A stretch of DNA of 64,000 nt from Nocardioides jiangsuensis (GTDB lineage: Bacteria; Actinomycetota; Actinomycetes; Propionibacteriales; Nocardioidaceae), in NCBI RefSeq assembly GCF_019679455.1, contig NZ_JAIEZQ010000001.1, positions 930,001 to 994,000 of the forward strand. The letters run 5' to 3'. The stretch's first letter is position 1, and every line of letters starts with the position of its first letter. Below are positions 51,010-52,974 of this stretch, piece by piece. The position numbers and the translations under genes are program-made. The notes under the pieces are model-generated. The model was not told the DNA's origin. It made no database searches and worked only from the letters and a program-made list of their open reading frames with translations.

Positions 51010-51654
51010 TCAGCTGCGGGCGATGTCCTCGAGCTGCTCGATCTCCCGGGTCTGCGCCTCGATGATGTCGCGGGCCAGCTGGTGCGCCTCGGGGTTGACC
51101 CCCTTCTCGAGCTCCACCTCGGCCATCTCGATCGCGTCCTCGTGGTGCTCGATCATCATCAGCGCCCACATCGAGTCGAAGTCGTCGGGCCGCACGTCCT
51201 CGAGCCGTTCGAGCGCCTCGCCGTCCATGCCGGACATCCCGTGGCCCATCAGCCCGGAGTCGGGCAGGTCCTCGCCCCAGGTCTCGAGCATCTGCTCCAT
51301 CAGGCCGATCTCCCGCTCCTGCGCGGTCTCCATCCGGGCCGCGAGGTCGGCCAGCTCGTCGGAGGCGCCGTGACGCTCGACCATCTCGACCATCCGCAGC
51401 GCCTGCGCGTGGTGCGGGATCATCTCCTGGGCGAAGGCGACGTCGTCCTCGTCGTGCCTCTCCGAGACCTCCACCGCCGGCCCCGACGGCTCGGACCGCT
51501 CGGACCGGTCGGAAGGTCCGGGGCCCATCCCCATCCCGCCGTCGCCCATGCCCATCCCGCCGGGGTCGTCGCCGCCGCACCCGGCGGCCCCGAGGGCCAG
51601 GACCACCGCGGCCGCGGTCGCCGCGACCACCCGGGCCGTTCCTCGTGCTCTCAT
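51010..51654 (-). CDS. DUF305 lipoprotein
   Basis: A 214-residue exported protein. The signal peptide ends in a lipobox LGAAGC (Cys near residue 26), so it is a lipoprotein. A Gly/Met-rich segment with repeated GMGMGDG-type motifs follows, possibly binding copper through methionines. The DUF305 domain has two HH pairs, in MIPHHAQAL and MMIEHHEDAIEMA. ATG 51654 is preferred over GTG 51663 because GAGAGG is then 8 bases upstream. Such proteins are often found beside copper-resistance genes. It is downstream of the DUF4396 gene on the same transcript. Confidence 0.85.
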   Translation of the reverse strand: MRARGTARVVAATAAAVVLALGAAGCGGDDPGGMGMGDGGMGMGPGPSDRSERSEPSGPAVEVSERHDEDDVAFAQEMIPHHAQALRMVEMVERHGASDELADLAARMETAQEREIGLMEQMLETWGEDLPDSGLMGHGMSGMDGEALERLEDVRPDDFDSMWALMMIEHHEDAIEMAEVELEKGVNPEAHQLARDIIEAQTREIEQLEDIARS

Positions 51655-51692
51655 CGCACTCACCTCTCCACGTCCTCAGCGCCCGACCGGGC

Positions 51693-52226
51693 TCAGTGGT
51701 GGTACTCGTGGACGACGGCGTGGCCCTTGCCGCGCCCGATCATCGCCTTGTTCACCGGCACGGTGACCACGAAGGCCACCGCCAGCGAGAACGCCAGCGC
51801 CGCCCAGAACACCCAGTTCGCCAGGCCGGCGCCCATCGCGCCGGGGACGGTCACCATCACCGCGTTGTCGACGATCTCCATCACCAGGATCGACACCGTG
51901 TCGGCGGCGAGGGCGACCTTGACCGCGCTGCGCAGGTCCAGGCCCGCCCGCCGGACCGAGGTGACGGTCAGCAGGTAGCCGAAGAAGAACGCCAGGGCGA
52001 CCGCCAGGGCCACGCTCGGGACCGCGGACCAGCCCCACCAGGTGGCCAGGACCATGCCCAGCACCTCACCGATCGCACACCCGGTGAGGCAGTGCAGGGT
52101 CGCCGAGATCGCGGTCCCCCAGGAGGAGTCCGCGCCGTGCCGGGCGTGGGCGCTCATCGCGTCGTGACCGTGCGGCTCGTACGCCGCGTCCGTGCCGTGC
52201 TCGTGCTTCGTGTCCGTGGGTTCCAT
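51693..52226 (-). CDS. DUF4396 His-rich membrane protein
   Basis: A 177-residue protein (179 if the GTG at 52232 is used). The N-terminal 30 residues are rich in His, Glu and Asp and could bind metal. Four membrane segments follow: about 38-60, 65-85, 100-120 and 135-155. The first carries CLTGCAIGEV, two cysteines suited to copper. A TATACC -10 box lies 7 bases before ATG 52226, indicating a leaderless mRNA. A CsoR-like palindrome overlaps that box. The operon continues with a DUF305 lipoprotein gene. Function is not established; copper handling is an inference from context. Confidence 0.75.
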   Translation of the reverse strand: MEPTDTKHEHGTDAAYEPHGHDAMSAHARHGADSSWGTAISATLHCLTGCAIGEVLGMVLATWWGWSAVPSVALAVALAFFFGYLLTVTSVRRAGLDLRSAVKVALAADTVSILVMEIVDNAVMVTVPGAMGAGLANWVFWAALAFSLAVAFVVTVPVNKAMIGRGKGHAVVHEYHH

Positions 52227-52233
52227 GCGCACA

Positions 52234-52254
52234 GGTATACCCCCTGGGGGTACC
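52234..52254 (-). promoter_or_regulatory. CsoR-like copper operator overlapping the DUF4396 promoter
   Basis: TACCCCCTGGGGGTA (52238-52252) is a perfect 7-bp inverted repeat around one base, flanked by GGTA and TACC. G-tract palindromes of this type are bound by Cu(I)-sensing CsoR repressors. On the minus strand the -10 hexamer TATACC (52239-52234) lies inside it, so a bound repressor would block transcription. No csoR gene is in the window. Confidence 0.6.
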
Positions 52255-52317
52255 TGGACGCAAGGGTCTTCCGACCGTGAAGTCCCCTCGCCGGGCCGCA
52301 GTGAACACCGTCACGTC

Positions 52318-52338
52318 TGCAACTAGTTGCACATGTGC
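52318..52338 (+). promoter_or_regulatory. Compound palindrome upstream of the PadR gene
   Basis: TGCAACTAGTTGCA (52318-52331) is a perfect 14-bp palindrome. It overlaps a second perfect palindrome, GCACATGTGC (52329-52338). Both lie 25-45 bases before the PadR start, where an autoregulatory operator is expected; PadR proteins often bind ATGT/ACAT dyads. Confidence 0.5.
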
Positions 52339-52362
52339 CGCGGGCCCGCCACGCTGTCCTGC

Positions 52363-52974
52363 ATGGCACTCGAGCACGCGATCCTGGTCTCGCTGCGGGA
52401 GCGTCCCGCGGCCGGGCTCGATCTCGCGCGCCGGTTCGACCGCTCCATCGGCTTCTTCTGGAGCGCCACGCACCAGCAGATCTACCGGGTCCTCGCGCGC
52501 ATGGAGGCCGACGGCTGGGTCAGCTCGGTCGGCGTCGCGCAGCGCGGGCGGCCGGAGAAGAAGGTGTACGACGTGACCACCGCCGGCCGCGCGGAGCTGG
52601 CCTCCTGGCTCGCGCGGCCGATGCCTCCGGAGAAGTTCCGCAGCGAGCTCGCGGTGCGGCTGCGCGGCGCGGCGTACGGCGACCGGCAGGCAGTCCTCGA
52701 CACGGTCCGGGAGCAGCTCGCCGACCACCGCACCCGGCTGGCGCACTACGAGCAGCTGGCCGCCCGCGACTTCCCGGACCCCGCCGGGCTCACCGGCCGC
52801 GAGCTCGACGTCCACCTGGTGCTCCGCGGCGGCATCCGCCTCGAGCGGTTCTGGGTCGACTGGCTCACCGAGTACCTCCAGGCCCACGGCGCCGCCCCCG
52901 AGCCCGGGCACGGCACCGACCACGACACCGACCCCGGCCCCGCCGCCCCCGACGTCGAAGGACCCGACCGATGA
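52363..52974 (+). CDS. PadR-family transcriptional regulator
   Basis: A 203-residue regulator. The winged helix at the N-terminus (ALEHAILVSLRERPAAGLDLARRFD, then IYRVLARMEADGWVSS and GRPEKKVYDVT) is a typical PadR start, and helices about 95-175 would form the dimer arm. The tail is Asp/His/Pro-rich. ATG 52363 is preferred; the longer frame from TTG 52327 adds residues inside the putative operator. The stop overlaps the ATG of the reductase gene (ATGA), so the two are co-expressed. Confidence 0.85.
   Translation: MALEHAILVSLRERPAAGLDLARRFDRSIGFFWSATHQQIYRVLARMEADGWVSSVGVAQRGRPEKKVYDVTTAGRAELASWLARPMPPEKFRSELAVRLRGAAYGDRQAVLDTVREQLADHRTRLAHYEQLAARDFPDPAGLTGRELDVHLVLRGGIRLERFWVDWLTEYLQAHGAAPEPGHGTDHDTDPGPAAPDVEGPDR

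Follow-up and report, generated by a model that had tools for sequence, protein, structure and literature searches.

Within a 64,000-nt stretch of DNA (hereafter the window), we identified a CsoR-type operator at the promoter of a DUF4396-DUF305 gene pair, and we consider it quite probable that the pair is a copper operon under CsoR control, with a Cu(I)-handling role for DUF4396. CsoR very likely regulates the pair, as predicted from the sequence, and the DUF4396 subfamily that carries an HCxxGC motif is likely to have a role in copper.

The operator, the promoter and the two genes

The CsoR operator of S. lividans was defined by experiment as TAC-X9-GTA inside ATATACCCCTNAGGGGTATAT, and base swaps in its TAC/GTA ends led to the loss of detectable CsoR binding (PMC3902906). 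In the window, the palindrome TACCCCCTGGGGGTA (52238..52252, not assigned to a strand) is perfect and occurs as a single exact copy. Read as TAC-CCCCTGGGG-GTA, it fits this TAC-X9-GTA dyad with G-tracts exactly, as a CsoR type-2 operator of the form TACCC-N5-GGGTA (hereafter the N5 site). On the minus strand, the palindrome is bracketed by a predicted promoter, TTGCGT-N18-TATACC, composed of a probable -35 box (52258..52263) and a probable -10 box (52234..52239), both assigned by reading the sequence. The operator shares two bases with the -10 box, as the sequence-only reading had noticed when it placed the palindrome over TATACC. Relatives share this layout, and since their aligned sites have a TTG-type -35 box 5' of the operator and a TATNNGGT-type -10 box 3' of it, the promoter spacer is filled by the operator. 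The DUF4396 ATG (52226) begins 7 nt past the predicted -10 box, which makes a leaderless transcript plausible for this gene.

Downstream on the minus strand, the DUF4396 gene (51693..52226; 177 aa from the ATG, with an alternative GTG at 52232) matched Pfam PF14342 at full length (profile 1-141; E 3.3e-41; 141 bits vs a gathering cut-off of 27). It is followed on the same strand by a gene for a predicted lipoprotein of the DUF305/CopM family (51010..51654; 214 aa from the ATG, with an alternative GTG at 51663; PF03713, E 1.4e-38), whose ATG is preceded by GGAGAGG. The gap between the two genes is 38 bp at the likely ATG and 29 bp at the alternative GTG.

DUF305 proteins have established copper roles, which include the copper-binding CopM of Synechocystis (PMC4335983). 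The window DUF305 passed the NCBIfam CopM model NF049983 (98 bits vs a cut-off of 90) and matched the CopM structure 5fej by sequence (E 3.8e-15). The sequence-only reading had tied two proteins of unknown function to copper; the tie to copper stood, but DUF305 does not belong among the unknown, because its family includes CopM and the window protein lies above the CopM cut-off. The likeness to Synechocystis CopM (PMC4335983; 5fej) consists of these sequence matches to the model and the structure. In Synechocystis, copM is encoded together with CopRS, which controls it, whereas the window DUF305 is a predicted lipoprotein behind a CsoR-type operator.

Genomic specificity and conservation of the operator

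We searched the whole 3.97 Mb host genome for the operator. The results showed that exact TACCC-N5-GGGTA occurs in four copies at three promoters, those of csoR1-copZ-copA (two sites), csoR2-copA and DUF4396-DUF305. With at most one mismatch allowed, matches to the pattern TACCCCCNNGGGGTA were confined, genome-wide, to the DUF4396 promoter and the two csoR promoters, and the reversed control of this pattern gave no match in the whole genome. One-mismatch scans of TACCC-N5-GGGTA picked up 34 more places in the genome, compared with 24 for the reversed control, and were left unused.

The host genome encodes three DUF156 (CsoR-family) proteins, two of which carry the copper ligand set C-H-C (pattern C...HxxxC). 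The csoR1 gene is followed by copZ (HMA) and copA, and csoR2 by copA; in the alignment of CsoR1 to S. lividans CsoR (4adz, E 6e-28), the C-H-C ligands are conserved. The third DUF156 protein lacks the His and adjoins thioredoxin, rhodanese and MBL-rhodanese genes, and is therefore CstR-like. Its operon carries TACCC-N4-GGGTA (TACCCCCTGGGGTA; L010:8239-8252). A Streptomyces plasmid with both gene sets (L138) showed the same split between N4 (CstR) and N5 (CsoR) sites, with its N4 sites (11366 and 14306) beside MBL/rhodanese genes. Spacing therefore separates CstR from CsoR sites, and the window operator, which has N5 and not the CstR-type N4 spacing, falls in the CsoR group. As a separate observation, this one-base spacing rule (N4 for CstR vs N5 for CsoR) may set both regulons apart wherever they coexist.

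We then collected DUF4396 loci in 395 genomes of the class, as well as on named genome contigs, and scanned 106 non-redundant actinobacterial loci, each with at least 250 bp upstream, over the 400 bp before the conserved domain. TACCC-N5-GGGTA was present upstream in 86 of the 106 loci, which share ancestry, so that the counts are non-independent events. The N0-N4 and N6-N11 spacings were found in 0/106 upstream scans and N12 in 1/106; the missing alternative spacings are a strong internal control. Shuffled upstream sequences of these loci gave a mean of 0.03 N5 matches, and the rest of the same loci (590 kb) contained eight. Among the 20 loci without an exact upstream N5 site, three carry an exact copy at another position of the locus, and a further three contain a one-mismatch site. 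Within the window's own family and order, the exact site lies upstream of DUF4396 in 12/20 loci, with a one-mismatch site in two more.

A motif-first test was performed with the Streptomyces genome G626, which holds the exact S. lividans copZA1 operator. Throughout its 8.6 Mb, the exact N5 site occurred at five places, namely csoR, copZA1 (two), copZA2 and DUF4396 (identified by tblastn); this set is that of the experimentally bound CsoR operators plus DUF4396. A motif-only search of the window's family returned 30 loci (L186-L215), of which 19 have csoR/copZ/copA neighbours, six have DUF4396 and five have neither; three of the six DUF4396 loci carry DUF305 downstream on the same strand. Two of the returned loci, from one genus (L186 and L188; genomes G026 and G104), conserve the exact N5 site TACCCCATGGGGGTA or its complement with no recognised copper gene in the fetched flanks, and may represent an additional CsoR target. 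The earlier proposal that TACCCCCTGGGGGTA is a CsoR operator was thus upheld by the match to the published consensus, by the genome-wide confinement of exact sites to copper promoters, by conservation 5' of DUF4396, and by motif-first searches that return csoR/copZ/copA together with DUF4396.

The same data bear on other origins of the palindrome. It could be an operator for CstR (persulfide) or for another DUF156-family protein, with the operon answering sulfide/persulfide or another signal, and the host does have a CstR-like DUF156 protein beside rhodanese/persulfide-type genes, with a site (TACCCCCTGGGGTA) of similar arms. However, CstR-linked sites in the host and on the Streptomyces plasmid have N4 spacing vs N5 at the copper csoR sites, N4 was found in 0/106 DUF4396 loci, and the neighbours are copper genes; we regard this reading as very improbable. 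Still less credible is control by the divergent PadR/Vir_act_alpha_C regulator (52327-52974, plus strand) with the palindrome as a bystander. This gene is adjacent to and divergent from DUF4396 in the window and in a few related loci, but PadR-type neighbours occur in about 6/80 DUF4396 loci vs an N5 palindrome in 86/106, and the csoR promoters bear the same palindrome. A functionless chance palindrome in GC-rich DNA could draw on the 34 one-mismatch places in the genome, yet exact sites are confined to copper promoters, the window site sits inside a predicted promoter, and the upstream conservation contradicts chance, which we consider next to negligible. Control by CsoR is the reading retained below.

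The DUF4396 protein and its copper-gene neighbourhoods

Hydropathy and charge predicted four TM helices in DUF4396 and put the positive loop, as well as the two termini, on the inside; the N- and C-termini are His-rich. Together with the PF14342 match, this agrees with the initial description of a His-rich four-TM DUF4396 protein. The HCxxGC motif in TM1 was present in 110/110 DUF4396 loci. Across 57 aligned members, H45, C46, G49, C50 and E54 in TM1 and D109, M116, E117, D120 and N121 in TM3 are invariant, and H169, H173 and H176 at the C-terminus are near-invariant. Potential metal ligands conserved in the TM helices are H45, C46, C50, E54 and M58 (TM1) and D109, M116, E117, D120 and N121 (TM3). 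An AlphaFold model (pLDDT 79.5, pTM 0.65) placed helices at residues 23-64, 68-93, 98-126 and 138-164, in agreement with the TM prediction. A PDB sequence search gave no significant match, and Foldseek on this model returned none under 0.001; Foldseek with VIA-align found generic helical bundles only (best Z 7.9), and none of the known structures matched convincingly. These sequence features suggest that DUF4396 is a Cu(I)-handling membrane protein.

Copper genes recur around DUF4396 elsewhere. On the Kineococcus radiotolerans plasmid pKRAD01, the genes run DUF305-csoR-copZ-copA-DUF4396-F510_1955, and csoR is preceded by two N5 sites; the accessible part of a Kineococcus copper proteomics paper contains nothing on this plasmid cluster. 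Several Streptomyces plasmids carry DUF6153-DUF305-(F510_1955)-DUF4396, in some cases followed by a four-helix-bundle copper protein (Csp), and an N5 site lies 5' of DUF4396 in these cassettes wherever scanned. In Ensifer canadensis, DUF4396 is flanked by genes for an HMA chaperone (copZ) and a CopA-type ATPase, with a MerR regulator gene next in the row, and the copper link of DUF4396 is therefore independent of CsoR. Distant DUF4396 genes on haloarchaeal plasmids have a copper-related neighbour within about 6 kb in 5/6 loci, where heavy-metal/copper ATPase, HMA protein, copper storage protein and plastocyanin were counted. On Streptomyces chromosomes, many DUF4396 genes have no recognised copper gene as a neighbour. 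Their recurrent neighbours (ferritin-like, small BFD-like, Ser/Thr kinase and others, named by sequence) look like conserved local gene order and were set aside as indicators of function.

Two further observations concern genes around or related to these cassettes. F510_1955 'glycosylhydrolase' genes recur in the DUF305/DUF4396 copper cassettes (L008:2601-3455 on the minus strand; L136; L138; L178), and the host genome has a homologue too, about 5 kb away from csoR1. In Streptomyces, distant DUF4396 paralogs (L150 and L152, from G626) carry an additional hydrophobic stretch at the N-terminus together with an SHCGAGC motif, and probably form a separate subfamily. No N5 site was found near the distant paralogs L150-L152, and the copper link therefore spans one DUF4396 subfamily rather than the entire family.

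How DUF4396 might handle Cu(I) was considered in two forms. Transport of Cu(I) is put forward tentatively, at a little under an even chance, and we favour it slightly over buffering on account of the conserved acidic and sulfur-containing residues inside the membrane. Under the same regulation, DUF4396 might instead be anchored in the membrane as a buffer for Cu(I) or a docking partner that receives copper from CopZ and hands it to CopA, or relays it out of the membrane to extracytoplasmic copper proteins, DUF305 among them. The predicted cytoplasmic His-rich tails, the position of HCxxGC near the cytoplasmic end of TM1, the small four-helix size and the place of the Ensifer protein between copZ and copA are all in keeping with such a role. 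Against it, the invariant E54, D109, M116, E117, D120 and N121 inside TM1/TM3 are more like a permeation path, and DUF4396 lies apart from copZ and copA in many loci; we therefore rate buffering or docking as possible but rather unlikely.

Proposed mechanism and relation to known systems

In the mechanism that we propose, apo-CsoR (one or both of the C-H-C CsoR proteins) would bind TACCCCCTGGGGGTA between the -35 and -10 boxes and block transcription. Binding of Cu(I) would free CsoR, and copper would then induce a DUF4396-DUF305 transcript alongside the csoR-copZ-copA operons. DUF4396, a small inner-membrane protein of four helices whose two termini are predicted to lie inside, would most likely capture cytosolic Cu(I) through HCxxGC...E (TM1), D...ME..DN (TM3) and the His-rich tails; working alongside CopZ/CopA, it may then transfer the metal into the membrane or across it. 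The DUF305 lipoprotein (CopM type), presumably co-transcribed, would buffer copper on the outer face.

In Streptomyces, experiments have shown csoR and the operons copZA1 and copZA2 to be CsoR targets (PMC3902906). The present system resembles the S. lividans regulon in its TAC-X9-GTA site with G-tracts at the promoter and in a host CsoR with the copper ligand set; it differs in that the targets there are csoR/copZA, whereas here the predicted target is the DUF4396-DUF305 operon. In S. coelicolor, SCO3280 was described as 'putatively repressed by CsoR' and SCO3281 as a cytosolic copper storage protein (PMC6414726); that paper assigns SCO3280 no family or function. In G626, a Csp gene and a DUF4396 gene that has an N5 operator are arranged tail to tail, and from this gene order SCO3280 is probably the same gene as DUF4396. 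If so, it is partial prior art for the regulation, not for the function. The S. coelicolor pair has a Csp neighbour, whereas the window pair has DUF305. Csp copper storage proteins are often found beside DUF4396 on Streptomyces plasmids and on one Halomarina plasmid; they are Cys-rich soluble four-helix bundles, a family distinct from the membrane protein DUF4396, and none adjoins the window operon.

Across 5.39 million open-access papers, DUF4396 was named in one, as a protein at the edge of an Acidihalobacter metal-resistance cluster, and it is absent from the accessible part of the paper on the Firmicutes CsoR meta-regulon. DUF4396 is essentially unstudied in the literature, while DUF305 is already linked to copper.

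These results indicate that DUF4396 is a recurring extra predicted CsoR target across actinobacteria, beyond csoR and copZA, and that it also occurs in copper clusters governed by a different type of regulator, as well as in those of archaea. We see about an even chance that HCxxGC DUF4396 proteins constitute a hitherto unrecognised family of membrane proteins that transport or chaperone Cu(I) and act beside CopA, CsoR-controlled in actinobacteria and present in copper cassettes of an alphaproteobacterium and of haloarchaea. A specific, testable function is now proposed for DUF4396, and the findings suggest that actinobacterial copper defence may include a membrane component besides the P-type ATPase.
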